From Marinobacter pelagius (lineage in GTDB: Bacteria; Pseudomonadota; Gammaproteobacteria; Pseudomonadales; Oleiphilaceae): a DNA stretch of 64,000 bases. The stretch covers positions 310,001 through 374,000 of the forward strand of contig NZ_FOUR01000001.1 in the NCBI RefSeq assembly GCF_900114925.1. Reading direction: 5' to 3'. Under the pieces are notes generated by a model. That model worked only from the letters and a program-made list of their open reading frames with translations. It ran no database searches and was not told the DNA's origin. Position numbers and translations under genes: made by a program. Positions 11,518 to 32,227 of this stretch are shown here, one piece after another. Position 1 is the stretch's first letter; the number at the start of each line of letters is the position of its first letter.

Positions 11518-11520
11518 TGT

Positions 11521-11748
11521 TCAATCCTCTGCCTTTTTCAATTCAGCACCAGCAATTGACTGAGCCTTGAGCGCGGGCGCAACCCCCGCTACGTAAAACT
11601 CCGCTCCCCGGTGTTCGGTTATCAGAATCCGGACAGACTCTGCACGTACCCCCAGGCTGGTGGTGATTGCTTCGGTAATTGCTTTGGCCGCTCCGGATTT
11701 CTGCTCGGTGGTACGACCTTCCATAAGATGCATTTCGATAATGGGCAT
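11521..11748 (-). CDS. dmpI: 4-oxalocrotonate tautomerase
   Basis: 75 aa. Isomerises 2-hydroxymuconate (4-oxalocrotonate enol) to its keto form. All key residues of 4-OT can be read, counting from the exposed proline after Met removal: Pro1, Arg11, Arg39 and Phe50. The chain is about a dozen residues longer than the 62-residue 4-OT of P. putida, through a Lys/Glu-rich C-terminal extension (AGAELKKAED). It is followed three bases later by dmpF. Confidence 0.95.
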   Translation of the reverse strand: MPIIEMHLMEGRTTEQKSGAAKAITEAITTSLGVRAESVRILITEHRGAEFYVAGVAPALKAQSIAGAELKKAED

Positions 11749-11766
11749 GTTCTGCTCCCTTTCTTG

Positions 11767-13358: not shown

Positions 13359-13365
13359 ACTCGCC

Positions 13366-14826: not shown

Positions 14827-14902
14827 AGTATTTCCTGCTCAATCCTGTGTCAGATGCCCCGTCTCAAGAGCCTTTGGTATCCGGTTGTACCACCCTATTT
14901 CG

Positions 14903-14968
14903 AGTCTAGGATTGTAAATACATACCGTCTAATACCATTTTATAAGCCAATCATTACCTTTTTGGTAT
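14903..14968 (-). promoter_or_regulatory. LysR-type operator and promoter of the dmpC operon (copy A)
   Basis: On the plus strand, TTAC-N7-GTAT (14954-14968) is the distal site and ATACCGTCTAATACC (14922-14936) the proximal site. On the minus strand the proximal site contains a -35 candidate TTAGAC, then 18 bases, then -10 TAGACT (complement of 14903-14908). All distances match copies at 29728-29793 and 31226-31291. The strong distal palindrome and weaker proximal half fit recognition and activation sites of BenM/CatM-like LysR proteins. Predicted start of transcription is about 70 bases before dmpC. Confidence 0.8.
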
Positions 14969-14980
14969 TGAAATGAAGGC

Positions 14981-15003
14981 TCGCGACCCAAACCGGGTCG
15001 CGA
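14981..15003 (-). terminator. Hairpin terminating the phenol hydroxylase-dmpB operon
   Basis: A perfect 9-bp stem TCGCGACCC with its complement and a five-base loop, ten bases after the stop of the first catechol dioxygenase. The T tract on the minus strand is weak (GCCTTCATTTC), so termination may be partial. It separates the sigma-54 operon from the LysR-type promoter of dmpC. Confidence 0.65.
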
Positions 15004-15012
15004 CTCCAGGTA

Positions 15013-15942: not shown

Positions 15943-15974
15943 TTTGAATACCTCACTGCGTGTTATCGTTATTT

Positions 15975-17036: not shown

Positions 17037-17052
17037 CACACTCTCCCGCTGT

Positions 17053-17403
17053 TCAACCGCAAATGCTATTCAGGGAAGGCGTTTTGAAACGCAGCAGCAT
17101 CTTGTGGCCAATCCCATTAGCCGCAAGGGTTTCATCCCAATTCGGCGTCCAGGGCTGATTTCCCTTGAGCCAGGTGACCGAGTCCCAGTCGATTTTTTCA
17201 GCATCGGGATCGGCACCGATCAAAGGGATGACATTGTTCTGCACCATGTCGCGGAAAACGGTCTCCGGAGAGACAAATAGCAGGAAAGCCGAAGCAAACA
17301 GCAGGTGGTTGTCCCAGCCCACATAAACCAGTTGGTTGCCGTTAAAGTTCTCAACGCGGTCTCTGGGAACACCGATATATTCTTTTCTGGAAACAACAGA
17401 CAT
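17053..17403 (-). CDS. dmpO: Phenol hydroxylase subunit DmpO (gamma subunit)
   Basis: 116 aa, the family length. It is the small structural subunit of the (LNO)2 hydroxylase core. The N-terminal FNGNQLVYVGWDNHLLFA and the central FRDMVQNNVIPLIGADPD are characteristic of phenol hydroxylase P4 proteins. No catalytic residues are expected. It lies between dmpN (71-base gap) and dmpP (16-base gap) in the canonical order. Confidence 0.95.
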   Translation of the reverse strand: MSVVSRKEYIGVPRDRVENFNGNQLVYVGWDNHLLFASAFLLFVSPETVFRDMVQNNVIPLIGADPDAEKIDWDSVTWLKGNQPWTPNWDETLAANGIGHKMLLRFKTPSLNSICG

Positions 17404-17473
17404 AAGATATCTCCTTGTTTTTGTTATCAGGCTGCCCGATATCCGGAACCCCGGACTCGGGCAGCCCTCAATG

Positions 17474-18991
17474 TCAGTTAGATGTGGTCATCTCGCGCCA
17501 CTTCTGGAAGCTGACCTGGTCGTGCGATCCCTTGAAATCGCCGTTATCGGATCCGTTTTCCAGGCAAGCCCATTCCATCCACGCCTCCAGATCACCATTG
17601 AGAGGTGCCTGGAACAGCGCCGGCATAGGCAGCCAGGCCTGAATGAACTTTTCGGGTTCCTCTTTGAAGATGTCACAGCAGTGGTCGGAGCAGAACTGGT
17701 AGGTTTCGCCTTTATATTCAGTCTCCCGGTGGCACAGACTTGAAGGATCGCCCGGCTCGCTGAAGACAGTCGGTAACTGGCAGGTCTGACAGAGTTTTGC
17801 CAGACCGAAATTGTTGAACGGGGTACCCGCCTCATCCATCTTTTTGATGTGTTCCCAGCGGGGACGGTAGTACTTGTCAAAAGTGTCCGGGTACTTCTTC
17901 GACAGCCAGTCCATGTCCTCATCACTGGGAATCCAGCTATGGAATGCAGTACCAAAGTTCCACTGGTATAAAGCCAGCATGAACTGGTGGGACATGTGAT
18001 CTACGGCTTCACCGGCGTCTTTCCACCCTTTCGGCGGACGGATACCGTAGCGGGCCAGATCGTTGAACAGCGCACCACCATTCTCCTCCCCGTAGATATC
18101 CCAGGCTTCGCGCCATGACATTACGCGTTTCGGCAGCATGTAATCCATCATGGTGCTGACCAGGCCAAGCACCCGGAAGCCGCGCCAGAACCACTTATCG
18201 ATCCACTTTTGCACGATCTCCACGTTGGCCGGATCCTGCTCGAGCATGAACTTGATGCATTCCAGTCCGAGGGTCATGTGACGCGCCTCGTCGGACTGAG
18301 CAGAGAAGCCAAAGGTTACGGTCGACATGTCGCCGTTATAGGCCGCACCAGACATGAACGGTACAAACAGCAGGTTGGTGAGCACGTACTCGAACGAGAA
18401 GCCGATGGCGATCATGAACTCGAACGGCCCGGCCGACATCGCGTCATCAAAGAAGGACCGCGCTACCGAGGTGTACCAGATGCGATCGCGCTGGTCGGCA
18501 AACGCGTGGAAGCCGCTGTAGAACTTGTTGTAGTTCGACATGGCGTGGATCTGTGTCTGGGCATGACGGATTTCGTCAATGGCCTGCATCTGGCAGGCAA
18601 CCTGGGGGCCGACACCGGGGAATTCCCGCCCAGCACGCGCGAAACCTTTGTGGGCAGCATACTCACCCGGGCTGATTGCCTGCAGGAAAATCTTCAGCGC
18701 AGAGAGATAGCGGGCGTCGGTAATCTTGAGGTGGCCGTTGTTCTGGGCAAACGCATCGATGATGGCGTAGAACTTGCGCTCTTTCTCAGCCTGGTATTTC
18801 CAGTAGGCATCCATGGTCAACCGGAACGGGTCTTCCCACTTCTCCCAGTCGTGGACCTTGATGCCTTCATAGGTTGCGTACGGGAACAGATCCTCTTTCT
18901 TCTGGTAGGACGGCTCCCAGGCAAGGTCCCGGGTCAGATAGCTGTACTTCTCTTTGAGGCTGAGTTTTTTCTTGTTTACTGGGGTATCCAT
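17474..18991 (-). CDS. dmpN: Phenol hydroxylase catalytic diiron subunit
   Basis: 505 aa large (alpha) subunit carrying the carboxylate-bridged diiron centre. Ligands by pattern are Glu110, Glu140, His143 (DEIRHAQ), Glu201, Glu235 and His238 (DEARHMT). Toward the C-terminus a YHS-type cysteine-rich module (KLCQTCQLP then QFCSDHCCDIF, about residues 395-460) is present, as in DmpN. The enzyme ortho-hydroxylates phenol and methylphenols to catechols. The length is slightly below the 517 of CF600, with no missing motif. Middle gene of the operon, 16 bases after dmpM. Confidence 0.97.
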   Translation of the reverse strand: MDTPVNKKKLSLKEKYSYLTRDLAWEPSYQKKEDLFPYATYEGIKVHDWEKWEDPFRLTMDAYWKYQAEKERKFYAIIDAFAQNNGHLKITDARYLSALKIFLQAISPGEYAAHKGFARAGREFPGVGPQVACQMQAIDEIRHAQTQIHAMSNYNKFYSGFHAFADQRDRIWYTSVARSFFDDAMSAGPFEFMIAIGFSFEYVLTNLLFVPFMSGAAYNGDMSTVTFGFSAQSDEARHMTLGLECIKFMLEQDPANVEIVQKWIDKWFWRGFRVLGLVSTMMDYMLPKRVMSWREAWDIYGEENGGALFNDLARYGIRPPKGWKDAGEAVDHMSHQFMLALYQWNFGTAFHSWIPSDEDMDWLSKKYPDTFDKYYRPRWEHIKKMDEAGTPFNNFGLAKLCQTCQLPTVFSEPGDPSSLCHRETEYKGETYQFCSDHCCDIFKEEPEKFIQAWLPMPALFQAPLNGDLEAWMEWACLENGSDNGDFKGSHDQVSFQKWREMTTSN

Positions 18992-19007
18992 AATTCTATC
19001 CTCGGCG

Positions 19008-19274
19008 TTATTTCCAGCTCAGAGTGAACGTGTCTTCGTCTTCAGTGAGGTGACCAGACATGGTGATCAGGTTGACTTGCAGTTCCTGCAGGTCATATTC
19101 CCTGCCGATCTGGTCCTCAATTGTTTCCCGACGAATCACCAGCTCATCCGGCGCGTCGATCTTCACCATGGCCGGTTCCTGGTGCACGGTTGCTGAAGGG
19201 TTATCCAGTTCGATGGCTTCGATAACCGGGCGTGTTTCTTCGTTGGTCTGAAAGGCAATAAAAACGGTGGACAT
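19008..19274 (-). CDS. dmpM: Phenol hydroxylase activator (coupling) protein
   Basis: 88 aa, cofactor-free regulatory protein of the MmoB/DmpM family that binds the hydroxylase and couples NADH use to oxygenation. The start MSTVFIAFQTNEETRPVIEAIE is typical, and the region around LQVNLITMSGHL resembles the family core. Lies 9 bases after dmpL and 16 before dmpN. Confidence 0.95.
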   Translation of the reverse strand: MSTVFIAFQTNEETRPVIEAIELDNPSATVHQEPAMVKIDAPDELVIRRETIEDQIGREYDLQELQVNLITMSGHLTEDEDTFTLSWK

Positions 19275-19283
19275 GATCTCTCC

Positions 19284-20276
19284 TTAAAGCGGAATGCCGG
19301 TTTTGACGATGCGTGCGCGGAAGGCATCCAGTTCTTCGGACACCAGCTCATCGACTCGCTCATCCACCACAGAATTCACAATGGGAAGCAGTGCGGAAAC
19401 CGCCCGATCGCTCCAGTGGTTGATCCAGTCAGCCAGAACCTGCGCATTCTCGGGAGACTCAGCGGCAGCAACCTTCAACACTCCGGTGGTCCACTTTTTC
19501 GATTCGGTAAACCAGTTGGTCATGAACTGCGTCAACATGGCCACCGCCTGTCCACCCTGCGAGGCGAGGTAGGTGTCTACCAGACGCTCATAGACAATGG
19601 GGTAAAGCAGGCCGTCCAGCACTACGTTCTGCAGTACAAACACTTCAAAGGGATCTCGGATAACCATGCTGTCTTCAACGTAACGACGCAGCGACTGCCA
19701 GGCAGGATCGTTGATCCAGATGTCCTTGCCTTTTCCCAGTGCGTCGGTACCGCCAAGCAGCAGACCGATACGGGAGAGGTACTGGGAGATGCCCAGGTTA
19801 TCCATGGCGTGGTACATGCAAGGCTGGGTGAAGACCACCCCAAAGCCGTAACCGCACACCAGTGTGTTGTTCTGGTTTGCACCCCAGGCTGCATGGCGCA
19901 GCGGCACCAGAAGGCTCAGCGCAGTTTCTTTGAGCTCATCGGCGAGCATGTCCTGCAGGCCACGGGCCTCGACGAAGGCAAAATTGGCCTCCATGTTTTC
20001 CTGCTGGCGGGAACGGGCAAGCGTGTAGGTGCTGTAGTAGAACTGCCGGGGATCCTTCAGGTCGTACCAGTCTTTCATCCGGATGCGTGACAGGTTGGGA
20101 TCATAAAGCTCCTGATCCGGATCCCAGGTCGGGCGGTAATGAAGGTTCTCCGCCGCCTGGATATCGTAGCTGCCTTCCTGGTAGCGGGATGCGGGCTTGT
20201 CCCCGAACCGGCGAGCCAGATGGTCAAAGGTTTTTCTGACCGGCTCGATACTTACTGTTCTCAGGTCAATCTGCAT
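19284..20276 (-). CDS. dmpL: Phenol hydroxylase beta subunit
   Basis: 330 aa. Structural partner of DmpN in the hydroxylase core; it has the same ferritin-like fold but lacks the diiron ligands. Recognised by the N-terminal RKTFDHLARRFGDKPASRYQE and by PRQFYYSTYTLARSRQQE, as in P1/DmpL proteins. Length equals the family norm (about 330). Positioned between dmpK and dmpM in canonical order. Confidence 0.95.
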   Translation of the reverse strand: MQIDLRTVSIEPVRKTFDHLARRFGDKPASRYQEGSYDIQAAENLHYRPTWDPDQELYDPNLSRIRMKDWYDLKDPRQFYYSTYTLARSRQQENMEANFAFVEARGLQDMLADELKETALSLLVPLRHAAWGANQNNTLVCGYGFGVVFTQPCMYHAMDNLGISQYLSRIGLLLGGTDALGKGKDIWINDPAWQSLRRYVEDSMVIRDPFEVFVLQNVVLDGLLYPIVYERLVDTYLASQGGQAVAMLTQFMTNWFTESKKWTTGVLKVAAAESPENAQVLADWINHWSDRAVSALLPIVNSVVDERVDELVSEELDAFRARIVKTGIPL

Positions 20277-20331
20277 TTATTGTTGTCCTCTGCTGTTGTT
20301 ATTACTTGAGATTCTTGAAAGTAATCAGTAA

Positions 20332-20619
20332 TTACCTGAAACGTTTGCCAGTGGCATCACGAAGGTTCCAGGCGAAATCCGCCATTCGATCTTCCGGACC
20401 TGCATCCTCTGCAGGCCCCATGGTCTGCACCTGGTTCATTTCACAGAATTCCTCAAAGGCGGGACGCGAAAGAATCATTTCCACGAAAAGCTCGGGCTCG
20501 CCAACGGCGAAGTCGAACTCCACAAATCCGTCCGCGCGCTCCCCGGTAATCCGGACAAAGCGACGCTCGGTATCCAACTGGGCAGTGGGAATGTCTGCCG
20601 GGTAACTGGCTTCTGTCAT
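20332..20619 (-). CDS. dmpK: Phenol hydroxylase assembly protein DmpK
   Basis: 95 aa from ATG 20619, where GAGGTGAAG sits about 5 bases upstream and the length fits CF600 DmpK (92 aa). The frame stays open to 20760, but the extra 47 residues have no counterpart I know of and are treated as untranslated leader. DmpK binds apo-hydroxylase and is needed for growth on phenol, probably by aiding assembly or iron loading. FVRITGERADGFVEFDF and the C-terminal MADFAWNLRDATGKRFR fit the family. First gene of the operon. Confidence 0.92.
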   Translation of the reverse strand: MTEASYPADIPTAQLDTERRFVRITGERADGFVEFDFAVGEPELFVEMILSRPAFEEFCEMNQVQTMGPAEDAGPEDRMADFAWNLRDATGKRFR

Positions 20620-20791
20620 TTGCTTCACCTCAACCGCTGGCCCCAGGGCCAGAACTTGTGGTGACATCAATTGCCCTGGTGTGCAGGGCGGGGGGATTTT
20701 GATGCCATCTTGTTTTTGTTTATTCATGTCGGCGCCAGCTGCTGACACCGACCATGACAATCAGAAATTGATCATCATCAACCTTGTACTA

Positions 20792-20807
20792 AGCACCCGG
20801 CGTGCCA
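20792..20807 (-). promoter_or_regulatory. Sigma-54 (-24/-12) promoter of dmpKLMNOPB
   Basis: On the minus strand the sequence is TGGCACGCCGGGTGCT. GG and GC are separated by exactly ten bases, the required sigma-54 spacing, and the -24 block TGGCAC is perfect; the -12 block reads GTGC rather than TTGC. It lies about 170 bases before dmpK and downstream of the candidate activator sites, as in the CF600 Po promoter. Confidence 0.8.
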
Positions 20808-21172: not shown

Positions 21173-22852
21173 TTATCTTTCCCGGGATTTCTCGACGCTG
21201 TTTTTTAATCTATAGGCCAGTTGCCGTCTGGAGACTCCCAGCAACTTCGCCGCATGGGTTAGATTGCCTCCGGCTTTCTTAACTGCCATATCCATCAGCA
21301 TCAGTTCGTGTCGGCCAAGATCAAAGCTGCCTTCCAGAAGTTTTTCGGCCATACGCACCTCCTGTTCCGACGCCTGACTACTGACGATTCCTTCCTTGCC
21401 AACTTCCACCCCTCCCTGGGTCTCCAGCCCTGAAATGAAAACGTGATCCAACTCGATAAATCCTCCGTCAGGCGCAAGTAACACACCTCTTTCAATCACA
21501 TTTTCAAGTTCACGAACATTGCCAGGCCAGTCGTATTCCAGAAGGCCGTGGGCTGCTTTTTCGGACAAGCCTCTGATCTTCTTGGAATAGACCGGAGCGT
21601 ATTTGGCTATCATGGCGTCAACCAGCAAGGGAATGTCCGATTTTCGGTCCCTTAATGGAGGAATATGAACGGGATAGGTTGAGAGACGGTAATAGAGATC
21701 GGAACGGAATTTTCCCGAGGCAATGGCGTCCTGAAGGTTAACGTTGGTTGCAGCGACCAGCCGGACATTGACCTTGATGGTCTTGTCATCACCCAATCGT
21801 TCCACTTCGCCGGTCTGGATAACCCGCAATAATTTCACCTGGGCTGAAGGTGACAGATCGCCAATCTCATCAAGAAACAAGGTGCCACCATCAGCGCGCT
21901 CGAATCTGCCACGACGAGACTCCTCCGCTCCCGTGAATGCTCCCTTTCGAACGCCAAACAGCTCCGACTCAATCAGGTCATGGGGAATAGCAGAACAGTT
22001 GACCGCGATAAAAGGCTGTTCTGCCCGACTACTGTGCTTGTGGAGCCAATGGGCGAAAACTTCCTTACCGACACCGGTTTCCCCAAGTAAAAGGACGTTT
22101 ATGGGGCTGTCTGCGGCACGCTCGAGAAGATTGAAAGCGCTCCTGAATGCCTGGGACTCACCAACCAGGTCGCCTCTGCCACGTTGAAGCCCCAGGCTTT
22201 CACGCAGAGAGGATACTTCTTCTTTGAGTTCCCGAATCTCGAGATCGATATTGTCCGGCTTGAACAGTTTGACGTATTCCTGGTCGTCCAATTCTTCGGC
22301 TGGCTTGCCGACAATCGAACATTTGTCATCACCGCAACACAGGCATAGCTCTTCCCGAAAAACGACAAACCGGTTGAAAAACCGTGTTACGTATCCCGAG
22401 GCATAGCCAGCGAGAGTCCAGCATGCGGCTTCCGTCCCGATTCCGAACAGCTGAATGTGGGATTCCGCCTCCCATGAGCCCTGCCAATCCACGGTTCCGA
22501 AAAAGGTGCCTTTATCCCAGTCGATGTCAGCCTCGGTAATCGTCGCCTTAACCAGACCCTCAAAGGCATGCAATTGCGGGCCAACCCGGAATACATCAAA
22601 AGGCTCACCGGTGCCCGTGAGCTTCCTGGCCAATTCCGCATCCCGTTGCCCGGATTCGAAGCCCATTCTCAACAACAGGCCTTTCGCCCGCTTCAAACCC
22701 AATGACTGGATCAGCTCCTTTCGCAAAGCACCCAGGGCAGATGCATGCAGCAGCAGCATCCGGTTCTCATCCAGCCAGATATTACCTTCTTCAATGTTGA
22801 AGCGAAGATGGGACCGCAGATTGAACTGCTCCATGAGTTTTTGCGCAGACAT
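21173..22852 (-). CDS. dmpR: Phenol-responsive sigma-54 activator (DmpR/MopR/XylR family)
   Basis: 559 aa. The N-terminal XylR_N plus V4R sensor spans residues 1-190, a linker 200-225, the AAA+ domain about 228-465 and a Fis-type helix-turn-helix 528-552. Walker A GETGVGKE is at 257-264, GAFTGA at 304-309 and Walker B TLFLDEIGD at 324-332. With a constant offset of 11, MopR's zinc ligands map to Cys144, Glu167, Cys170 and Cys178, and its phenol-contacting His106 and Trp134 map to His95 and Trp123. It should therefore sense phenols directly. Unlike CF600, it is transcribed in the same direction as the hydroxylase operon. Confidence 0.95.
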   Translation of the reverse strand: MSAQKLMEQFNLRSHLRFNIEEGNIWLDENRMLLLHASALGALRKELIQSLGLKRAKGLLLRMGFESGQRDAELARKLTGTGEPFDVFRVGPQLHAFEGLVKATITEADIDWDKGTFFGTVDWQGSWEAESHIQLFGIGTEAACWTLAGYASGYVTRFFNRFVVFREELCLCCGDDKCSIVGKPAEELDDQEYVKLFKPDNIDLEIRELKEEVSSLRESLGLQRGRGDLVGESQAFRSAFNLLERAADSPINVLLLGETGVGKEVFAHWLHKHSSRAEQPFIAVNCSAIPHDLIESELFGVRKGAFTGAEESRRGRFERADGGTLFLDEIGDLSPSAQVKLLRVIQTGEVERLGDDKTIKVNVRLVAATNVNLQDAIASGKFRSDLYYRLSTYPVHIPPLRDRKSDIPLLVDAMIAKYAPVYSKKIRGLSEKAAHGLLEYDWPGNVRELENVIERGVLLAPDGGFIELDHVFISGLETQGGVEVGKEGIVSSQASEQEVRMAEKLLEGSFDLGRHELMLMDMAVKKAGGNLTHAAKLLGVSRRQLAYRLKNSVEKSRER

Positions 22853-22994: not shown

Positions 22995-25397
22995 TCAGCT
23001 TGTCACCGCTTTCATTCTAGGAACCAGAAGGAAGCGGGCAAGCGCTGGCAGCAGAATGAGCGCACCCAGCATGTTCCAGATGAACATGAATGCCAGCAGG
23101 AATCCCATGTCCGCCTGGAACTTGATCGGCGAGAAGCCCCAGGTCATGACCGCGACGCCTAGAGTAACCCCTGTCAGAATCACTACTTTTCCGGTAAACA
23201 GCAGGGCCCCATAGTAGGCATCCGAAAGAGACTCACCAGCTTTGAGTCTTGCCAGGGTAACCGAGAGGATATAGAGCGCATAGTCGACACCAATGCCCAC
23301 ACCAAGGGCAATGACAGGAAGCGTGGCCACTTTTATACCTATATCCATCCATACCATGAGGGCCTGGCACAGTGCCGAAGTTATCATCAGCGGAACGACT
23401 GCACAGACAACCGCACGCCATGACCGAAAGGTCACAAGAGCCAGCAGGATAACCGCTGTGTAGACCAACAGAAGCATCTGGAAATTGGCTTTTTCGACCA
23501 CTATGTTCGTGGCAGCTTCAATCCCCGCATTACCTGCAGCATTCAGGAACTGGATCTTGTCGGTGCTGTATTTCTGCGAGAACTCCTGGGTGACATCGAC
23601 CACGCTATTCAGGGTGTCGGCCTTGTGATCCTTGAGGTAAGCGAACACCGTCAAAAGATCACATTCCTGATTGAACATCTCCCGGGGAGCTCGGGTAACA
23701 ATTGCATTCAGCATTCCCTGGGAGTTTGGAATACCCCACCACTTCATACTGCCTTCGTTCATCCCGACGTTGGCAACCTTTGCGAGGCCGGCCAGCGATT
23801 GTGTCGACTCAACGCCCGGCAGCTGTTTCAGTCTCCGTTCAAGAGCATCGACCACCTTAAGTGTTTCGTAATGAGCACATGCGTACTGCTCTGTTTTAAC
23901 CATTACCACGTAGACATCGCTGCTCGCGGCATAGTTGGTCACCATGAATTTATTATCAAGGTTGTACTGTGAATTGGCGCGGAGCTCCGGCGCACCAATG
24001 CCAGTGTCGCCAATTTTCACGTTGCTTCCCACGAACAGCCCCACGCCACCAAGAAGCGCAAACACCAGTATGGTAATGCCGGCAACCTTTCGTTCTGTAA
24101 ACCGGTCCAGAAGCGCCCACACAGGGTGCTTGGCATGGTCTTTATCATTCTGGTTAGCGATGTCTGCCTGAACACTGCGAGCAGCTGCTTTCGCGTTTAC
24201 GCCAGTGTATGAGAGCAGAATCGGCAACAGAATAAGGTTGGTAAATATCAGCGCAGCAACGCCTATACTGGCGGTCACCGCAAGATCCTGGATAACCGGA
24301 ATATCAATGACCATCAATACCGCAAAGCCAACAGCATCAGAAACCAGTGCAGTTAACCCTGCAACGAAAAGGCGCCTGAAGGTGTGCCGCGCTGCTACCA
24401 AACGGTGAGTCCCCCGTCCGATATCTTGCATGATGCCATTCATTTTTTGGGCACCATGACTCATCCCGATTGCAAAAACCAGAAACGGAACCAGTATCGA
24501 ATAGGGGTCGAGCCCAAAATCCAGAATGCTCAGCAAGCCGAGCAGCCACAGGACGGCCACCATGGAACAAGCAACAACCAACAGGGTGCTGCGCAGGCAT
24601 CGGGTATAGAAGAAAAGGACCAGTGTGCAGATAGCAATCGTCAATGCCAGAAAAAGCAGTACCTGCTGCATACCACTGATGAGATCACCAGTCACTTTGG
24701 CAAAACCGGTAATGTGAATATTTACACCATCGGCTTCATAGTTGTCTCGCAGTATCTCAAGCTGCTGACCTAACTCGTGATAGTCGATTTTTTCGCCGGT
24801 AACACTATTGGTTTCCTGCAAGGGCACGAAAATCACTGTGGAACGATAGTCCTCGGCGACCAGTTGCCCTATTTCCCCTGAGCGTTCAACGTTCTCGCGC
24901 ACCTGGTCTATGCTCTCTCCCGAACCGTCATAATCAGAGGGAATGACCGGACCACCGTCGAGCCCTACTTCCGTCACACCGGACCAACGAACCGCTGGCG
25001 CCCACAGATGCTTCATGTAGGGCCGATCAACACCCGGCAAGAGGAATACTTGCTCGCTAAGCTCTCGTAAGGTTTCCAGGTACTCCTGATCAAAAATGGT
25101 GCCTTCCCTTGCTTCAACCGCGATACGCAGAGAGTTCTCGATACCAGCCAGCTCACTGCGATTCTCGAGATAGTTCACGATGAAAGGATGATTCGTTGGA
25201 ATCATCTTCTGAAAGGCTGCATCCATGGTGAGATTCCGGGCCTGGAAGCTCAGAAACAGTGTAATCACCAGGCACAACAGAACGACAACCATGCGGTTGT
25301 TGAACAACATTCTCTCAACGACATTTCCGGAGCGGGTATCAAAATCCTCAAGTCGGCGAATGATGTCGGGATTCGGCTTGTCGACGCTCATATTCAT
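22995..25397 (-). CDS. MMPL/RND-family membrane transporter of the envelope module
   Basis: About 800 aa from ATG 25397; an open extension to 25424 overlaps the upstream gene. It has two halves, each with an N-terminal membrane helix, a large periplasmic domain and a block of five or six helices (e.g. IAICTLVLFFYTRCL, LPVIALGVGIGVDYALYI). This is the HpnN/MmpL-like, sterol-sensing-domain-like RND architecture rather than the AcrB type. Such proteins move hydrophobic molecules. It is the last gene of a DUF1302-DUF1329-YCF48-MMPL set that I recognise as recurrent in hydrocarbon- and steroid-degrading proteobacteria. Cargo is unknown. Confidence 0.88.
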   Translation of the reverse strand: MNMSVDKPNPDIIRRLEDFDTRSGNVVERMLFNNRMVVVLLCLVITLFLSFQARNLTMDAAFQKMIPTNHPFIVNYLENRSELAGIENSLRIAVEAREGTIFDQEYLETLRELSEQVFLLPGVDRPYMKHLWAPAVRWSGVTEVGLDGGPVIPSDYDGSGESIDQVRENVERSGEIGQLVAEDYRSTVIFVPLQETNSVTGEKIDYHELGQQLEILRDNYEADGVNIHITGFAKVTGDLISGMQQVLLFLALTIAICTLVLFFYTRCLRSTLLVVACSMVAVLWLLGLLSILDFGLDPYSILVPFLVFAIGMSHGAQKMNGIMQDIGRGTHRLVAARHTFRRLFVAGLTALVSDAVGFAVLMVIDIPVIQDLAVTASIGVAALIFTNLILLPILLSYTGVNAKAAARSVQADIANQNDKDHAKHPVWALLDRFTERKVAGITILVFALLGGVGLFVGSNVKIGDTGIGAPELRANSQYNLDNKFMVTNYAASSDVYVVMVKTEQYACAHYETLKVVDALERRLKQLPGVESTQSLAGLAKVANVGMNEGSMKWWGIPNSQGMLNAIVTRAPREMFNQECDLLTVFAYLKDHKADTLNSVVDVTQEFSQKYSTDKIQFLNAAGNAGIEAATNIVVEKANFQMLLLVYTAVILLALVTFRSWRAVVCAVVPLMITSALCQALMVWMDIGIKVATLPVIALGVGIGVDYALYILSVTLARLKAGESLSDAYYGALLFTGKVVILTGVTLGVAVMTWGFSPIKFQADMGFLLAFMFIWNMLGALILLPALARFLLVPRMKAVTS

Positions 25398-25401
25398 TTG
25401 A

Positions 25402-26499
25402 TTATTTGAACTCCGTGCTATCAAGTTCCAGACGCTTTGGTCCTCTGGCAGTTGACATAACCAACTGCCCTCCCGGGCTTACAATCAGGTCGGTAATCGC
25501 CGCGTCTGAGGCTTGAGCGAGCTCGCGTACTTGTTCACTATCGCCTGACTTAAGGAACAAACGACCTGTCACATCCCCGAGAACAATGCCCACTGGTGTC
25601 AGAACTCCAGCACTGAACGAGGCCTGGGAGCCTGTCGGAATCTGTGTCCAGCTATCCCCAGCGCCTGCCCACACGTTCCCCCGCAATCCGAATAAAACGA
25701 ACTGGTCTGAACCCGACGCAACACCACCAAAGAACGTGCCCTGATAGTCAATAGGCGATGATTCAAATACGCCGGACTCCTCCGCTGAACGCGAAACCAG
25801 TCCACGCTCGCCGACGATGAGACCATCGTGCGAATCAGCAGGTATATATTGATAGAGATGATAGGAATTCGGATTGCCCGTAATTGAAAAAGCGGAATCC
25901 CATGTCTGACCAGCATCCCGGCTATGGAGGGCAATACCATAGGCGCCGAGAAGCCATCCTTCGCCATTTTCTGAAAAATGCACATCCAGAACAGGCTCGT
26001 CCCCGGTCAGGTAGCTGGCGTTCCGCTTGAGCACATCGGCCATATCTTCACTTTCGGGCAAAGACTCGACGGCCGTCTTAATTGTCGCCACAATCTCCTG
26101 ACCGGTCATCACCTTTACCCATTGTTCACCTGCGGTTTCCGTTCGCAGTACAACGCCCGAATGACCAACGGCCCAGCCTTCTGTCGGCGAGATGAACTCA
26201 ACATCCGTCAGCGTTACACTCACCGGAACACCGGAAGCCTGGGACCAGCTCTGGCCATCATCATCGGACAACAAAACGATGCCCTGTTCTCCAACAGACA
26301 CCAGCCGATTTCCTGCTCTGGCCACTGCCAACTGAACAGAGTGGTTGGCGTCATCAACACGCATCGCAGGCAATTCTGTCAGGTCAGGCAAAACCTCACT
26401 GATCTCCTGCGCGCACAACCCCAGGGGAGCATGCATCAACAGCAGGCCCGACAGCATTAACGCCCCATGCGCCACGAATCCAGAAGCCGTCTTTTTCAT
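25402..26499 (-). CDS. Exported YCF48/BNR-repeat beta-propeller-like protein
   Basis: 365 aa from ATG 26499, which gives a clear signal peptide (MKKTASGFVAHGALMLSGLLLMHAPLGLCA); an extension to 26583 overlaps the DUF1329 gene end and was rejected. Repeated blades with the pattern ...DDGQSW...EGWAVGHSGVVLRTETAGEQW...GEGWLLGAYGIALHSRDAGQTW are typical of YCF48/photosystem II stability factor and sialidase-type propellers. Its stop lies four bases before the MMPL start. Homologues pair with MMPL/RND proteins, so it is plausibly a periplasmic accessory factor. No enzymatic residues could be assigned. Confidence 0.88.
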   Translation of the reverse strand: MKKTASGFVAHGALMLSGLLLMHAPLGLCAQEISEVLPDLTELPAMRVDDANHSVQLAVARAGNRLVSVGEQGIVLLSDDDGQSWSQASGVPVSVTLTDVEFISPTEGWAVGHSGVVLRTETAGEQWVKVMTGQEIVATIKTAVESLPESEDMADVLKRNASYLTGDEPVLDVHFSENGEGWLLGAYGIALHSRDAGQTWDSAFSITGNPNSYHLYQYIPADSHDGLIVGERGLVSRSAEESGVFESSPIDYQGTFFGGVASGSDQFVLFGLRGNVWAGAGDSWTQIPTGSQASFSAGVLTPVGIVLGDVTGRLFLKSGDSEQVRELAQASDAAITDLIVSPGGQLVMSTARGPKRLELDSTEFK

Positions 26500-26544
26500 C
26501 TTTACGTCACCCGGTATTAAGCATTTCATTTGCCAAAACCCGAT

Positions 26545-26570
26545 GCAGGCACCCAGCCAGGGGTGCCTGC
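26545..26570 (-). other. Strong intercistronic mRNA hairpin in the envelope-module operon
   Basis: A perfect 10-bp stem GCAGGCACCC with its complement and a six-base loop, between the DUF1329 stop and the YCF48 start. On the minus strand it is followed by ATCGGGTTTTGG, so it may be a weak terminator or a 3'-end stabiliser favouring DUF1302/DUF1329 over the distal genes. Confidence 0.6.
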
Positions 26571-26579
26571 GGCCAAGGA

Positions 26580-27932
26580 TCATCGCATGGCTTCGGCAGC
26601 GACAGCGTCGCCCGTAAAGTAGGTTTCTGGTTTGGTCGGCACGACCTCCAGGTACTCTTCCTGCAGCGCCTGAATGATGCTCAAAGTATTGGCCTGGAGG
26701 TTAAACACCAGCGTTGTCTTGAGCATGGTTGCCGGAACGGTTGGAACAACAAAGGGCGTGGTCATGGACGCTCGCCAGAGGTTCCCCTCCGAGTCGTAGC
26801 CGTCAACGAGGGCGATCAGCCATGTATCCTCATCAAGGAAGTAGGTCCTCTTGGGAACCGCATGTCGCATGCCATCACGCACGTTCGCCTCAATTTCCCA
26901 GACACGATGACGCTCCCACCTGACTTCTTCAGGGTTGGCGTGATACTCGAGGTAGGCATCATCCAGACTCGCGCCAATGAAACCATTGTTGTTGTAGGGA
27001 ATGAGCATCTCCCGCTTACCTACCAGCTTCCAGTCAAATCTATCCAGCGAACCAAAGAAGCCTTGGACTTCATCAAAGTAGTTTGCGCCTGAAGCCACAA
27101 AATCCGGCGTATCGTAGGATACGGTTGGCGCCTGCCGGACACGTCGCTGGCCGAGCAGGTACTGCCATGCCTGCCTGGACTTGTCCTGATCTATGCTATC
27201 CCTGATAACGAGAGATTCACCCGCCTTGAATGGAGGTGCCAGAGTATTGAACCGGAACATGGCGTACTCGCCGCTCCAACTGTCCGGTGTTACACCCTCA
27301 TAGAACTGGGGATACTGGAAGGCAATTTCGTTACGTGTCGCCAGTGTGTGAGAGCCATCCGAGTTGCCGACGATGTTTCTGAAGGTATATTCAATGGAAG
27401 GCGCCTCGGTCCTCAGGAGGAAGTTCCACATCACTTCGACGCCCGATTGTGGAATGGGGAAAGGTGTTCCCCCCGCACATCCTTGCAGCGAATAACCTCC
27501 GTCAGCCGTCTCACAGCGAGTCGCGTTTGCCAAGGCATTGTCATAGACCGACTGGGGATGTGCGCCCGTCCGGTGCGTGGGATATACATTCAGGTAGAAC
27601 GTGTCCGGATATTTATTCAATAAGGCTTTAACCCCTTCCGACAACAAATCCCCATACTCGGACATGTTGGACCTGGTCACCTTGTAGAGGGGTTTTTCGT
27701 CTTCGAAAATCTGGGCAGGAATATCCCCCATGTGTTTACCGGGAAGCGGATCCACAATGCCGCCCGTCCATTCAGGAATGGTTCCATCCGCATTTCCGGA
27801 GCGCTCTGCACCAACCGGGGTCAGCTCATTTTTCAGACTCTCAGCCTTTTCTGCAGAGACAGCCGAATATGCATCTGTCGCTCCCAAAGCCAGAACAGAG
27901 GCGATGACTGCTACGATATTATTTTTTTTCAT
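26580..27932 (-). CDS. DUF1329-family exported protein
   Basis: 450 aa with a signal peptide (MKKNNIVAVIASVLALGATDAYSA). The N-terminal GNADGTIPEWTGGI, the central Tyr-rich strands and RTYFLDEDTWLIALVDGYDSEGNLWRAS identify DUF1329. Structures of relatives suggest a LolA/LolB-like lipid-binding fold, so a periplasmic or outer-membrane carrier of hydrophobic molecules is a reasonable inference. It is second in the operon after the DUF1302 gene, with 36 bases between. No reaction is known. Confidence 0.9.
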   Translation of the reverse strand: MKKNNIVAVIASVLALGATDAYSAVSAEKAESLKNELTPVGAERSGNADGTIPEWTGGIVDPLPGKHMGDIPAQIFEDEKPLYKVTRSNMSEYGDLLSEGVKALLNKYPDTFYLNVYPTHRTGAHPQSVYDNALANATRCETADGGYSLQGCAGGTPFPIPQSGVEVMWNFLLRTEAPSIEYTFRNIVGNSDGSHTLATRNEIAFQYPQFYEGVTPDSWSGEYAMFRFNTLAPPFKAGESLVIRDSIDQDKSRQAWQYLLGQRRVRQAPTVSYDTPDFVASGANYFDEVQGFFGSLDRFDWKLVGKREMLIPYNNNGFIGASLDDAYLEYHANPEEVRWERHRVWEIEANVRDGMRHAVPKRTYFLDEDTWLIALVDGYDSEGNLWRASMTTPFVVPTVPATMLKTTLVFNLQANTLSIIQALQEEYLEVVPTKPETYFTGDAVAAEAMR

Positions 27933-27944
27933 GACAAACTCCTC

Positions 27945-27962
27945 GTTACACCTGCGTGTAAC
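27945..27962 (-). other. Small intercistronic hairpin between the DUF1302 and DUF1329 genes
   Basis: GTTACAC with its complement GTGTAAC around a four-base loop, 7 bp of stem with no T tract. Probably an mRNA processing or stability element rather than a terminator; low certainty. Confidence 0.4.
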
Positions 27963-27968
27963 CGACCA

Positions 27969-29657
27969 TCAGAATGTGCGTTGAATAGAGAGGGAAACGA
28001 AATCCCGGTCACCGTGAAAGTTCTCATAGGAAAGTTCCGGCACGGCGGTGTCGTATTTGATGATTGAACCAGCCGCTCCGTAGTAATGGGTGTAGCTGAG
28101 CCCGGCCTGCCAGGTTCTCTGGTAATCAGCAGTAATCCCAAGACTCACGTTCCCGCCATGCTCTGAGGGGAACAGAGCTCCATTGACAGAAGAACGGCCA
28201 TCAACTCCATAACTGGCGCCAATCGGGGTTTTCAGATCCAGTCCCGGAGCAACCTGGAAATACTCAGGCGTGAAAAGAAACTGGACAGCTGTGGCATCAC
28301 GGGTGGCGCTGGGATCCAGTTGGTCACCGTTCTCTGAAATACTCAGGCGTCGGTTGAATGCCATCTCAGCCAACAGGGAAGCGCCATCCCAAAGCGCACT
28401 TTCGTTAAAAACGTTGATCATCGAGAGGTTGGCGTGGAATGTTCTACCAACGGGATAGGCCGCATTGTCCCCGTTATCTGCAGTAGTATTTCCTGGCAAG
28501 ATCACAGTGTTGCCGGAAGCAACCAGTGGCATGTCATCACGGAATGAAATCTCGGCTGCCACATTCGCTTCGCCAATCAGCGTGCTCACACTGGCCCCCA
28601 CCATCTTGATGTCCTCGGCATAAGTGAGGACGTAGTCGCCGATGCTACCCGCCTGAACGTTCACGCCCGGGCGAACATAAAACTGAGGCATCTTGTCGTG
28701 GTACTGGGCTGCATAAAGTCCAAAATCATAATCGCTGGCTTTGAACTTGAGCTGGGCTCCAAACTGGCCACTGTCACTGGCTTTTTGGTCACTGCCACGA
28801 AACACTGATTGGCCCGGGCCAAGAATGATTGTCTCGCCACCTTCGTCAGCAAAGTCGGCAAAACTGAAATAGCTCCCAGAGGCCGGCAACTGGGTTTTAC
28901 GCCACTCGAATTGGTAGTAAGCACCCAAAGAAACCTTGGGGCTAAGTTGAAGCTGAGCAGAAAACTGATTGATCGGACGCAGAATTTCCTGAAAACGGGA
29001 ATTGGGAACGGACAGCGCTTTCACGAGATCCAGGGATGTCTGACCAGCAGCCACCCCGTTGGATCCGAAGAAAAGACTTTCACCATAGAGCTGCGTGAAG
29101 CGACCCGCTTTCATATTCAGGCTCTTTTGGCCCAGGTATATGTTGCCGAAAGCGAACGCATCCAGAAGCTCTGCATCCCGGCCATGAAGCTTCTCGGTTT
29201 CATCGGTAAACTCATCGGTATCGACAGATCTCGGGTTGTACAACGCCCCACCCAAGGCTCCGGGATTATCGTGCTCAGTGTTGTAGACAGAGTCATACCA
29301 GGCAGCACCACTCAACCGGAAGCCGTAACGACGCTTGTAATTGAAGTTGAACTCCGAGAGGAGATCGACGCGGTTTGAAATCAGACCTTTGTCAAAGTTC
29401 AGGTCGCCATCGTTGGTGTTTGCCTGGACACCAATGGAATTATCAGCGACTTCCGGATCCTGATCTTCGACACGCCAGGCTGCGCTGTACTTGAGCGTGT
29501 TGTTCCAGCTCATCCGTATGTCACGATTGCCACTGTCAATCGTCATGGCATTAGCGCCGCCACTTAGTGCCATTCCGGCCAGGATCGTTGAAAGGATGGG
29601 AGTGCATCGTTTCAGCACTGAATGCTTTTGATTGTGGGTTTTGTTGTTCTCGGCCAT
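27969..29657 (-). CDS. DUF1302-family outer-membrane beta-barrel protein
   Basis: 562 aa with a long signal peptide ending in ALSGGANA. The start RDIRMSWNNTLKYSAAWRVEDQ, alternating amphipathic strands and the C-terminal aromatic residue (SLSIQRTF) fit an outer-membrane beta-barrel of the DUF1302 family. Family members occur next to DUF1329 genes in alkane, terpene and steroid degraders and are presumed channels for hydrophobic substrates. First gene of the four-gene module, preceded by a LysR-type promoter identical in layout to that of dmpC. Cargo unknown. Confidence 0.9.
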   Translation of the reverse strand: MAENNKTHNQKHSVLKRCTPILSTILAGMALSGGANAMTIDSGNRDIRMSWNNTLKYSAAWRVEDQDPEVADNSIGVQANTNDGDLNFDKGLISNRVDLLSEFNFNYKRRYGFRLSGAAWYDSVYNTEHDNPGALGGALYNPRSVDTDEFTDETEKLHGRDAELLDAFAFGNIYLGQKSLNMKAGRFTQLYGESLFFGSNGVAAGQTSLDLVKALSVPNSRFQEILRPINQFSAQLQLSPKVSLGAYYQFEWRKTQLPASGSYFSFADFADEGGETIILGPGQSVFRGSDQKASDSGQFGAQLKFKASDYDFGLYAAQYHDKMPQFYVRPGVNVQAGSIGDYVLTYAEDIKMVGASVSTLIGEANVAAEISFRDDMPLVASGNTVILPGNTTADNGDNAAYPVGRTFHANLSMINVFNESALWDGASLLAEMAFNRRLSISENGDQLDPSATRDATAVQFLFTPEYFQVAPGLDLKTPIGASYGVDGRSSVNGALFPSEHGGNVSLGITADYQRTWQAGLSYTHYYGAAGSIIKYDTAVPELSYENFHGDRDFVSLSIQRTF

Positions 29658-29727
29658 CTTGTTCTCCTCAAGTAAGGGAGTCTTTGTTTTTTTGGTGAGG
29701 CAACTTCAGAAATCCGCCTCTGAGTAA

Positions 29728-29793
29728 ACGTTAAGCGTCGCTATGATTACCTTCCAATACTATCTCGTGGCCATCCTGATACCTTTTTGGTAT
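29728..29793 (-). promoter_or_regulatory. LysR-type operator and promoter of the DUF1302 operon (copy B)
   Basis: Distal site ATAC-N7-GTAT at 29779-29793 (perfect palindrome ATACC-TTTTT-GGTAT), proximal half sites TTACC at 29747 and ATACT at 29757. On the minus strand -35 is TTGGAA, spacer 18, -10 TAACGT (complement of 29728-29733). Every offset equals that of copies A and C. The predicted transcript starts about 64 bases before the DUF1302 gene. Confidence 0.8.
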
Positions 29794-29934
29794 TGATATG
29801 GTTAAAGCCTCTCTTTGCATCAGGTCGATAATCTCCACTCGTCAAAAGACCATCGCGACCCCGTGAAGGCTCAACTGAGGTTGGATAAAGGATTTACCTG
29901 GCCCGAAATCCATTGCAGACACTCGCTTTAGCGT

Positions 29935-30339
29935 TTATTGGCGCTTTCGGTTTTCAATTTCCGATTTTCGCAGGTCACTGGCAAATCGGCCGCCAATACA
30001 CCAGTCCTCAGGTTCAACACGGATACAATGCCCACGTACCAATTCAACCTCCACTTCCAGGACTCGCCCGATCAGTTCGCTGAATTCCTGCGCGATCTTC
30101 TGCCGTTGTTCAAGCGAGCGGCCCTCGAGCACGATGAACTCGAAGAACACAGAACGTGGACCCGGCACCTGTCCCATGGTCGCCACGTCAGTATCAGCAT
30201 GAGATACATAAAACGCCCGAACCCTGTCCATGGGGCACTCAAGAACACCGGCGTATTTTTCCGAAGCCTCGCTCAGAAACTTCCTGACGACCTGATCCGG
30301 ATGGCGAGGGCCCGAAACATGAAACTTGACGACTGGCAT
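29935..30339 (-). CDS. Tautomerase-superfamily protein, tandem 4-OT-like
   Basis: 134 aa, roughly two 4-oxalocrotonate-tautomerase modules in one chain, as in cis-CaaD or MIF-like members. The amino-terminal proline (MPVVKF) and an arginine at position 11 of the mature chain are present, and Arg38/Arg40 lie near the 4-OT Arg39 position; the second module contains FFEFIVLEGRSLEQRQ. It probably catalyses enol-keto tautomerisation or a related hydration, substrate unknown. It follows the SDR gene by 11 bases and shares its LysR-controlled promoter. Redundancy with dmpI is possible but the architecture differs. Confidence 0.8.
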   Translation of the reverse strand: MPVVKFHVSGPRHPDQVVRKFLSEASEKYAGVLECPMDRVRAFYVSHADTDVATMGQVPGPRSVFFEFIVLEGRSLEQRQKIAQEFSELIGRVLEVEVELVRGHCIRVEPEDWCIGGRFASDLRKSEIENRKRQ

Positions 30340-30350
30340 AGGAGTTCTCC

Positions 30351-31148
30351 CTAAGGCAAACCGCGACGACGTCCGGAATCGAGCATTAGCGTGGCCCCCG
30401 TCATGGCTCCAGCCTCCTCATCCAGCAGGAGTGAAACCGCCCAGGCTACCTGCTCAGGCGTCGTAAATTGGGAAATCGATGATTCCGACAACATCTCATC
30501 CAGCACTTGCTGGACCGACACGCCACCCTGCTGCGCCCGGGCAATTGCAACATTTCGCAAACGCTCCGTCTCCGCGGGCCCAGGGGCAACAACATGTGCT
30601 GTAATTCCCCGGGCGCCATATCCCAGGCTGAGCTGACGAACGACATTGACCAGAGCTGCATTCGCCACTCCGGCAGAAGCGGCATAAGCGGTCGGCTCCA
30701 GACCGTAATGACCACCAATGGCGATAATTCTTGAGTTTTTTGTCATGTACTTTTCCGTCGCGCGAACCACCCGCAGCAGACCACCAACCTTGATGTTGAC
30801 GGCCTCATTCAGGATATCGATATCCGCATCCAGTATGCCGCCGGCAACACCAACACCCGGTCCATGCACAACAGCCCTCACCCGCCCCCTGACCGCCCGG
30901 GAGATATATTCAATCGATTCTTTCGATGCCACATCAGCGCAACAGGTACGAAGACCCGGCAATTCATCCTGAAGAGTTCCAAGAGCGGACTCGCTTCGGG
31001 CAACAGCCAGGACGTCCAGCCCCCGATCCAGCAATTTCGAAACGATCACTCGACCGAAGGCCCCTGTAGCCCCAATAACAACGGCGGTCTCGGCGGACGT
31101 TTCACGTTCCGGACCTCCTGCATAACCCACCACATTTACCTCACTCAT
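30351..31148 (-). CDS. Atypical short-chain dehydrogenase/reductase-like protein
   Basis: 265 aa Rossmann-fold SDR. The nucleotide-binding motif appears as VIGATGAFGR (residues about 24-33) and the C-terminal GATLMLDSGRR is usual. The active-site region reads IIAIGGHYGLEPTAYAASAGVANA: the Tyr is present, but the Lys four residues later is Ala, and the catalytic Ser is replaced in GGHYG. It may therefore bind a nucleotide without classical oxidoreduction, or use different chemistry. It starts the SDR-tautomerase unit, divergent from the LysR gene with a shared operator region. Confidence 0.82.
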   Translation of the reverse strand: MSEVNVVGYAGGPERETSAETAVVIGATGAFGRVIVSKLLDRGLDVLAVARSESALGTLQDELPGLRTCCADVASKESIEYISRAVRGRVRAVVHGPGVGVAGGILDADIDILNEAVNIKVGGLLRVVRATEKYMTKNSRIIAIGGHYGLEPTAYAASAGVANAALVNVVRQLSLGYGARGITAHVVAPGPAETERLRNVAIARAQQGGVSVQQVLDEMLSESSISQFTTPEQVAWAVSLLLDEEAGAMTGATLMLDSGRRRGLP

Positions 31149-31225: not shown

Positions 31226-31291
31226 AGTCTAGAAACCCAAAAAGATACCGTCTAATACCGTTACAGAAAGCAATCCATACCTTTTTTGCAT
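31226..31291 (-). promoter_or_regulatory. LysR-type operator and promoter of the SDR operon, overlapping the lysR upstream region (copy C)
   Basis: Distal site ATAC-N7-GCAT at 31277-31291, proximal site ATACCGTCTAATACC at 31245-31259, identical to the proximal site of copy A. The minus-strand promoter is TTAGAC, 18 bases, TAGACT (complement of 31226-31231). The distal site ends 21 bases before the lysR ATG, a position suited to negative autoregulation. Confidence 0.8.
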
Positions 31292-31312: not shown

Positions 31313-32227
31313 ATGGACCTGAGAAAGCTCCGCTATTTTTTGACGGTGGCCGAGGAACGGAATCTTGGGCGTGCAGCCGCTTTGCTGCACATATCGCAGC
31401 CGCCTTTGACTCGGCAAATCCACCAGCTTGAGCAGGAACTTGGTGTGCAACTGTTCAACCGCACACCAAAGGGAATGGAGCTTACGGAAGCAGGGACATT
31501 ACTGGCACAGGAAGCGCGGAATATTTTCTCGCTGGTACAGCAGGCATCAGAGAAAACCCAGAGAGCCAGCCAGGGCAGGCTTGGCCGCCTGGATGTGGCT
31601 GTATTCGGCTCAGGGGTTCTGGACACCATTCCCCGGGTTTTGCGCCGCTTTAAAGAAGACTATCCCGAGGTGAAAGTGGTTCTGCACACGATGGAAAAAG
31701 AAGAACAGATTCAGGCTCTGAGGCAGCACAGAATCACGGTGGGCTTTAACAGAATGCTCAAACCCCTCCCCGACATCACAACTGAACTGGTCAACAGGGA
31801 AAGGTTGTTACTGGCGGTGAACGAAAACAGCCCCCTCGCAACCCGGTCCGTCATCAAGCTTCGGGAACTGGCCGACTACCCCATGGTCCTGTTCTCATCA
31901 AGCGCACGCCCCAATTTTGTCGATAAGGTGATGTCACTCTGCTATGCGGCAGGTTTCACACCTGAAATCACTCAGGAAGTCGGTGATGTGGTTACTGGAG
32001 TCTCGCTTGTAGCCAGCGATTTTGGTGTCTGTCTGGTTTCAGAATCGGCGGCGTCGCTCTCATTACCCGGAGTCGTCTACAGAGAAATCTCGGATCTACC
32101 GGCAAGTGCAGCCATTGACCTCTCATGCATCTTCAGGGCGGATGATAATTCGATGCTTCTGAAATCCTTCCTTGGAACTCTAAGAAACTTCAAGAGTGAG
32201 GAGCTTCTCGAAGACGAGGCACGATGA
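31313..32227 (+). CDS. LysR-family transcriptional regulator (BenM/CatM-like)
   Basis: 304 aa from ATG 31313 (MDLRKLRYFLTVAEERNLGRAA); a nine-codon extension to 31286 would overlap the operator and was rejected. The winged helix-turn-helix is at residues about 3-60 (LHISQPPLTRQIHQLEQELGVQLF) and the effector-binding domain at about 90-295. Closest in style to CatM/BenM/ClcR regulators, which bind ATAC-N7-GTAT sites and sense muconate-like inducers. Such sites occur three times nearby, always oriented to minus-strand catabolic genes. The inducer is not known; a meta-pathway intermediate or ring-cleavage product is plausible. Confidence 0.92.
   Translation: MDLRKLRYFLTVAEERNLGRAAALLHISQPPLTRQIHQLEQELGVQLFNRTPKGMELTEAGTLLAQEARNIFSLVQQASEKTQRASQGRLGRLDVAVFGSGVLDTIPRVLRRFKEDYPEVKVVLHTMEKEEQIQALRQHRITVGFNRMLKPLPDITTELVNRERLLLAVNENSPLATRSVIKLRELADYPMVLFSSSARPNFVDKVMSLCYAAGFTPEITQEVGDVVTGVSLVASDFGVCLVSESAASLSLPGVVYREISDLPASAAIDLSCIFRADDNSMLLKSFLGTLRNFKSEELLEDEAR

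Follow-up and report, generated by a model that had tools for sequence, protein, structure and literature searches.

A four-gene AmeABCD-type envelope module in the phenol island of Marinobacter pelagius, probably an efflux system for hydrophobic aromatics

Next to the phenol meta-cleavage genes of the gammaproteobacterium Marinobacter pelagius (assembly GCF_900114925.1, genome size 3.8 Mb) are four genes whose products belong to the families DUF1302, DUF1329, YCF48-like and MMPL, and the module that they form is considered here. It lies in a 64,000-nucleotide stretch of contig NZ_FOUR01000001.1 (positions 310,001 to 374,000) which was analysed as a whole and is called the window; coordinates are those of the window unless another contig or locus is named. 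The four genes are tightly packed on the minus strand, from 29657 down to 22995, in the order DUF1302-DUF1329-YCF48-MMPL, which is the gene set and order of the AmeABCD system of Castellaniella defragrans 65Phen. The reading to which we give a probability of roughly 60% is that the module is a tetrapartite efflux system of that type, serving the phenol island, in which a proton-driven transporter of the resistance-nodulation-division (RND) family would export hydrophobic aromatics or intermediates of their breakdown and so give tolerance. The original prediction, made from the letters of the window, had sketched a path across the envelope from four such proteins, and that architecture has held: each is a solid Pfam member, and families and models fit an outer-membrane barrel, a LolA-like carrier, a propeller and an RND pump. 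The span that it gave, 22995-31148, was too generous, as the module is the part to 29657 and the remainder takes in tautomerase-like and short-chain dehydrogenase/reductase (SDR) genes that have an operator of their own.

The DUF1302 gene starts at 29657 and a gap of 36 nt precedes that for DUF1329, whose product has a signal sequence at its N-terminus and whose closest match, 92% identical, is from M. guineae, a species with the same island (our locus L003). Two starts are better placed inside the listed open reading frames (ORFs): the YCF48 ORF was listed to 26583 and its true start is probably the inner ATG at 26502, ahead of the signal peptide MKKTASGF..., and MMPL likely starts at an ATG ~27 nt inside the listed TTG, just past the YCF48 stop. 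As a sequence search of the PDB with DUF1302 and DUF1329 gave no matches, their folds were modelled. The AlphaFold2 model of DUF1329 (predicted confidence score, pLDDT, of 88) matches LolA3 (9tp6, E 8.9e-16) and a DUF1329 structure (4z48, E 2.3e-14) in the PDB, and that of DUF1302 (pLDDT 79.8) is a barrel which Foldseek matched to AlgE, OpdK and OmpF-type barrels, with TM-scores on query length of only 0.33-0.45; these are general porin-like barrels, from which the cargo is not identifiable. On these models an outer-membrane barrel with a LolA-like periplasmic partner, as expected of an AmeABCD-type system, is predicted. The YCF48-like protein matches solved Ycf48 chains (E 5e-15). For the MMPL protein the best NCBIfam subfamily is HAE3 (TIGR00921, E 4.7e-44), the 150.6 bits being under the curated cut-off of 351.9, and its solved sequence relatives are few: the hopanoid transporter HpnN and MmpL4/MmpL5. 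Identity with HpnN was considered and rejected (51.8 bits against an equivalog cut-off of 751.85). In the MMPL protein D714-Y715, conserved in 76/76 sequences with letters there, aligns with the D-Y pair of MmpL4/MmpL5; its counterpart in the first half is S-H-G-x-Q, with S322-H323-G324 and Q326 conserved in 78/78 sequences with letters there. Such asymmetric motifs suggest one acidic proton site plus a histidine.

What ties the module to the phenol genes? A two-part site of 47 bp, WTACCKTCYAATAC-N18-WTACCTTTTTKGYAT, is upstream of the module, upstream of dmpC and between the SDR gene and a divergent LysR gene, in all three cases ahead of a leftward unit, and in it the proposed match between the promoters of the module and dmpC has found its basis. 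It consists of a half related to ATACCGTCTAATACC and then ATACCTTTTTGGTAT or a near copy. The genome has these three copies only: with up to 3 mismatches no fourth two-part site was found in the whole genome and the reversed control gave 0, the zero mismatches at the three sites being by construction as the pattern was built from them. The palindromic half is of the ATAC-N7-GTAT type, with one mismatch in two of the three, and fits the T-N11-A rule of LysR sites. Set against random 50-mers, for which the best chance match averaged 28.5 identities with a maximum of 34, the 33/50 identities of the dmpC and module sites are unconvincing, as is the whole-site identity of the three operators in general, and so the case for the operator rests on the motif count and on conservation in relatives. 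An odd palindrome of T-N11-A form upstream of lower-pathway genes, with a LysR of CatR/CatM type, is the pattern of the AphT regulon, and both are present. From its motif, the dmpC-type promoter is classed as LysR (AphT/CatM-like), not sigma-54/DmpR type, and the likely regulator of the three operators is the LysR divergent from the SDR gene (start taken at ATG 31313), whose best NCBIfam matches, every one under cut-off, are AlsR, PRK09986, CatM and BenM. A search upstream of DUF1302 revealed no convincing sigma-54 site, matches across the window being at chance level, and one for an AphS/BphS-type GntR site found none. A sigma-54/DmpR promoter probably drives dmpK, the match upstream of it being only suggestive since matches of such quality occur at chance density in the 64-kb window. 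The gene for the DmpR-type activator, a protein similar to MobR (NF041906, E 3.4e-171, under its cut-off), adjoins the module and is probably a separate transcription unit because a GC-rich inverted repeat and then T-rich DNA are downstream of MMPL.

Is the association peculiar to one genome? A scan of 84,980 species genomes yielded 70 loci with a close DUF1329 relative. All four genes are together in all but one of them and in the same order in 60, and in most of the rest the sole difference is a call that was duplicated or split. A LysR matching that of the window at >300 bits is present in 57/70, a DmpR-type regulator in 50/70 and at least one of the two in 61/70, so the conserved neighbourhoods did not turn out to be unrelated to catabolism, and the guess that such sets occur near genes for the degradation of hydrophobic substrates was borne out. 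Phenol hydroxylase or catechol 2,3-dioxygenase genes are within the stretch examined in 31/70 loci, a count limited by stretches that often end too soon for phenol genes. Among the hosts are Aromatoleum, Zoogloea, Thauera, Azoarcus, Zavarzinia, Alteromonas, Pseudomonas, Rugamonas and Hydrocarboniphaga, and the module with the same regulators is retained across alpha-, beta- and gammaproteobacteria. In most of the loci LysR is directly divergent from DUF1302, and in 54 of the 56 LysR-linked ones an ATAC-N7-GTAT site precedes the DUF1302 start by no more than 300 bp (112-251 bp), with 1.03 expected when stretches are drawn at random from these loci; the other two, L042 and L043 (L and G numbers are our handles for loci and genomes), have no perfect site. 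An earlier count confined to LysR-DUF intergenic regions gave 42/57 (0.4 expected), lower because some of these regions were badly cut by ORF ends, and it was better gene starts that led to 54/56. For the full two-part operator, a regular expression search in related Marinobacter loci gave no match, clear conservation there being only of the palindromic half. Regulator-linked loci are clustered in the MMPL tree, with 6 changes against 13.0 on shuffling and 0/500 shuffles as low, a figure that near-copies help. The few neighbours without the regulator link have genes for different enzymes of aromatics, such as a hydroquinone dioxygenase-like protein in L070, or for a P450 (L067). MMPL relatives, at most 66% identical, are on 40 plasmid records. 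The modules of relatives also have additions: in Zoogloeaceae/Rhodocyclaceae a universal-stress-protein and hemerythrin fusion comes after MMPL (L005:14965-16047, L013:14980-16005 and eight other loci), and in Pseudomonas versions (L038, L040, L045, L052) a second DUF1329 gene is upstream of DUF1302.

Within the genus, 120 Marinobacter genomes were compared, DUF1302 and MMPL at least 86% identical being taken as orthologues. Orthologues of the module are in 4/120 (the source genome G000, with G089, G118 and G024), and a phenol hydroxylase dmpN of 91% identity or more is found in exactly these genomes. Another dmpN, of 63-68% identity, is in 36 of the 120; in 27 of those 36 there is also a different MMPL, which in 26 genomes is no more than 10 kb from dmpN, and no genome (0/120) has this second-lineage MMPL without the other-type dmpN. 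Fisher tests gave 1.2e-7 and 1.8e-19, values that are only indicative as related genomes are not independent. L091 is the one other-type locus that was read from end to end; its genes run DmpR, YCF48, MMPL, DUF1302, DUF1329, unlike those of the window, and a very long branch separates its MMPL from the window's in the tree. Two distantly related modules of one kind accompany two phenol-locus types. The positions of non-orthologous YCF48-MMPL(-DUF1302-DUF1329) modules are L091:11313-18083, where an ABM-domain gene follows, and L088:15462-18931, with another in L087.

The chromosomal setting adds mobility to this. The OmpA family and photolyase genes that flank the island are 25 kb apart in the window, with 1.3 kb between them in G009 and G011 and 3.1 kb in G001; the same flanks surround the other phenol-locus type in G004, G056, G063, G076, G088, G098, G099, G103 and G108, and in G089 both types are in tandem between them. 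The guanine plus cytosine (GC) content is 53-55% inside the island and 60-63% outside. Given the shared flanks, near-empty slots and lower GC, the module belongs to a mobile phenol island that has a preferred chromosomal site. The slot itself, 8100-33450 of the window, is in relatives near-empty, filled by the other island, or filled by both in tandem.

The best guide to function is AmeABCD, whose deletion in C. defragrans lowered monoterpene tolerance and raised Nile Red in de-energised cells (PMC6394551). Both consist of four genes from matching families in an identical order (DUF1302, DUF1329/LolA superfamily, COG4447/YCF48 and an RND transporter that is HAE3 in AmeABCD and putatively so in the module), a likeness of families and gene order, and each lies in an island for the breakdown of a toxic hydrophobic substrate; by this analogy the option of export against toxicity, raised in the original prediction, would be a sound one. 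They differ in that AmeABCD is in a monoterpene island, has no reported LysR/AphT operator and has been tested experimentally, whereas the module is in a phenol island and is a prediction from the genome. For Betaproteobacteria, Suvorova and Gelfand (2019) had predicted the four families in AphT/AphR/AphS phenol regulons, and proposed for such four-gene operons a role in coping with toxic aromatics (PMC6449761). Their DUF1302-PF07044-COG1033-COG4447 operons likewise adjoin phenol genes, a CatR/ClcR-type LysR and an odd palindromic site, but are betaproteobacterial only, while the window is from a gammaproteobacterium and has three operator copies and no AphS/BphS-type site. In P. putida the same families are two unlinked pairs, PP_0765/PP_0766 and PP_2018/PP_2019, which are predicted to interact and are in no aromatic operon, and on which together the bacterium depends to grow on Tween 20 (PMC10866462). 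The source genome of the window has a second set that is split over two contigs, DUF1302 with DUF1329 on contig 11 and YCF48 with MMPL on contig 15, and by analogy this P. putida-like arrangement supports joint action of the four proteins; an MMPL like that of the split set is near-universal in Marinobacter. More distant is the ‘nanopod’ cluster of ORM2a, a benzene-degrading member of the Desulfobacterota, which has DUF1329, YCF48-related and MMPL proteins as well as a porin-like protein and a universal stress protein, and is highly expressed in a benzene-degrading culture, but is from an anaerobe of a distant lineage with function there likewise only predicted (PMC13101534). As cited in that 2026 paper, deletion of a DUF1329 gene in Delftia impaired growth on phenanthrene. 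The Buc phenol-hydroxylase cluster of Zoogloea oleivorans, the strain whose module locus is L013, lists DUF1302 and DUF1329, naming just these two of the four and assigning no role (PMC7012976). In Aromatoleum EbN1 there is an EtpR-controlled putative solvent efflux cluster, ebA326-335 (PMC4630880), which may be the same gene set.

How might the system work? Drawing on the proton gradient, the MMPL pump, with the YCF48-like propeller docked on it, would extract hydrophobic or amphiphilic compounds from the periplasm or inner membrane; the LolA-like DUF1329 carrier would hand the cargo over the periplasm and the DUF1302 barrel would be its outer-membrane exit. This path, which leads from MMPL via DUF1329 to DUF1302 and has YCF48 attached to the pump, is proposed from the folds and by analogy with the complexes predicted for the PP_ proteins. 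The probable cargo is an aromatic substrate (phenol homologues, cresols, or benzene, toluene, ethylbenzene and xylenes (BTEX)) or lipophilic intermediates accumulating in the membrane. A LysR of the AphT/CatM group would switch on three units, the module, dmpC with the lower pathway, and SDR with tautomerase, probably on sensing a ring-cleavage product, and DmpR would drive the phenol hydroxylase. As LysR would co-activate the module with the lower pathway, the module would be on while the pathway is running, its role being tolerance rather than a catalytic step. A broader proposition, which we regard as doubtful, is that Ame-type modules are a general and repeatedly recruited partner of aerobic phenol/BTEX meta-cleavage islands, with a specialised lineage, under a LysR responsive to ring cleavage, exporting an intermediate (catechol, methylcatechol or semialdehyde) and not the starting substrate, and with two unrelated lineages in Marinobacter having taken on this task at the same site.

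Several points weigh against efflux linked to phenol breakdown. The need of P. putida for its set on Tween 20 is as compatible with uptake or surface processing as it is with export, the LolA-like and barrel parts leave direction unfixed, and the linkage counts take related genomes as independent. Two nearly complete genomes, G043 and G083, have dmpN with no DUF1302/MMPL match at the thresholds used, and so possession of the hydroxylase is not strictly dependent on the module. Could the traffic then be inward, DUF1302 admitting a hydrophobic aromatic or aromatic ester for the phenol pathway, DUF1329 ferrying it, and MMPL/YCF48 energising or recycling the carrier? To the P. putida phenotype can be added the split set of the same kind in the window's own genome, the Delftia deletion in so far as it is known from citation, and the co-regulation with catabolic genes, which suits a substrate route. 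RND/MMPL transporters of known function, however, export. Phenol and BTEX need no carrier to cross membranes, the operator is common to the lower pathway and so implies induction after ring cleavage, which is late for an uptake system, and the ameABCD deletion led to more toxicity and dye accumulation (PMC6394551). On balance uptake seems unlikely.

Envelope upkeep or lipid asymmetry, with a lipid, hopanoid-like molecule or altered phospholipid being exported under solvent stress in place of an aromatic, would make sense of the solved relatives of MMPL, of a LolA fold that carries lipids, and of a paralogous set in nearly every Marinobacter genome irrespective of phenol genes, which suggests a general envelope task. 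It accords poorly with the shortfall of MMPL from HpnN membership, and a dedicated copy inside each phenol island is easier to explain by a specific cargo; we consider it distinctly unlikely. That the module is a passenger, sharing a regulator by chance and having no aromatic role, might be entertained given how much the island looks horizontally acquired from its GC and from the closeness of the flanks in G001, G009 and G011, but the retention of the same regulators across three proteobacterial classes, the conservation of the operator in relatives and the different Ame-like lineage at another phenol-locus type make this highly improbable, and it was already strongly disfavoured.

An AmeABCD-type efflux system is thus preferred, and of the original interpretation the architecture, the shared operator and the catabolic setting stand. 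‘Uncharacterised’ was too strong a label, AmeABCD having been studied experimentally and the four families already predicted in phenol regulons, and some phenol loci do without the module. Such systems have received little description rather than none, this kind of module having mostly been described before; the novelty seems to lie in its occurrence in a gammaproteobacterium, in a single slot being home to two module types and in how large the regulator-linked family is, and the repeated pairing of module and phenol genes at one chromosomal site appears to have no earlier description. A DUF-labelled protein family is placed in a clear biological setting, and if confirmed this would help explain life on toxic aromatics and be useful for bioremediation and solvent-tolerant production strains. 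Marinobacter, having phenol genes with module I, module II, both or neither, is a natural comparison set.

Table 1. Positions of the module, its putative control sites and its neighbours
Feature	Position	Strand	Evidence or remark
OmpA family gene, left island flank	6982-8028		
Phenol meta-cleavage genes: phenol hydroxylase subunits, dmpB, dmpC, lower pathway	8533..20760	-	Pfam
Two-part operator upstream of dmpC	14922..14968		
Candidate sigma-54-like -24/-12 site upstream of dmpK	20792..20807	-	TGGCACGCCGGGTGCT, one mismatch
DmpR/XylR-type sigma-54 activator (MobR-like), adjoins module	21173..22852	-	Pfam XylR_N, V4R, Sigma54_activat
MMPL / putative HAE3-type RND inner-membrane transporter (AmeD-like), 809 aa	22995..25424	-	Pfam PF03176, E 7.4e-19
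YCF48-like periplasmic propeller (AmeC-like)	25402..26502	-	Pfam PF14870 (PSII_BNR/YCF48), E 2.6e-16
DUF1329 periplasmic LolA-like hydrophobic carrier (AmeB-like), 450 aa	26580..27932	-	Pfam PF07044, E 1.1e-120
DUF1302 outer-membrane beta-barrel (AmeA-like), 562 aa	27969..29657	-	Pfam PF06980, E 2.2e-127
Two-part LysR-type operator upstream of module	29747..29793		palindrome ATACCTTTTTGGTAT at 29779-29793
Tautomerase-like protein (4-oxalocrotonate tautomerase related)	29935-30339	-	weak NCBIfam match, E 3.9e-8
SDR-family oxidoreductase, first gene of third LysR-operator unit	30351-31148	-	Pfam PF13561, E 9.3e-27
Two-part operator between SDR and divergent LysR gene	31245..31291		
LysR-type regulator, CatM/BenM/AlsR group (AphT-like), divergent from SDR	31313..32227	+	Pfam PF00126, PF03466
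Photolyase, right island flank	33492-34844		
Split second set, DUF1302-DUF1329 and YCF48-MMPL	G000 C11:31167-32951 and C15:197368-199659		L001, L074

As to the remaining genes of the island, a PHROGs search with the tautomerase-like protein gave no match, and in loci L047 and L048 its gene comes after those for catechol 2,3-dioxygenase and SDR. The island has two catechol 2,3-dioxygenase-like genes, at 8533-9468 and 15013-15942, as has also been reported for Zoogloea oleivorans.

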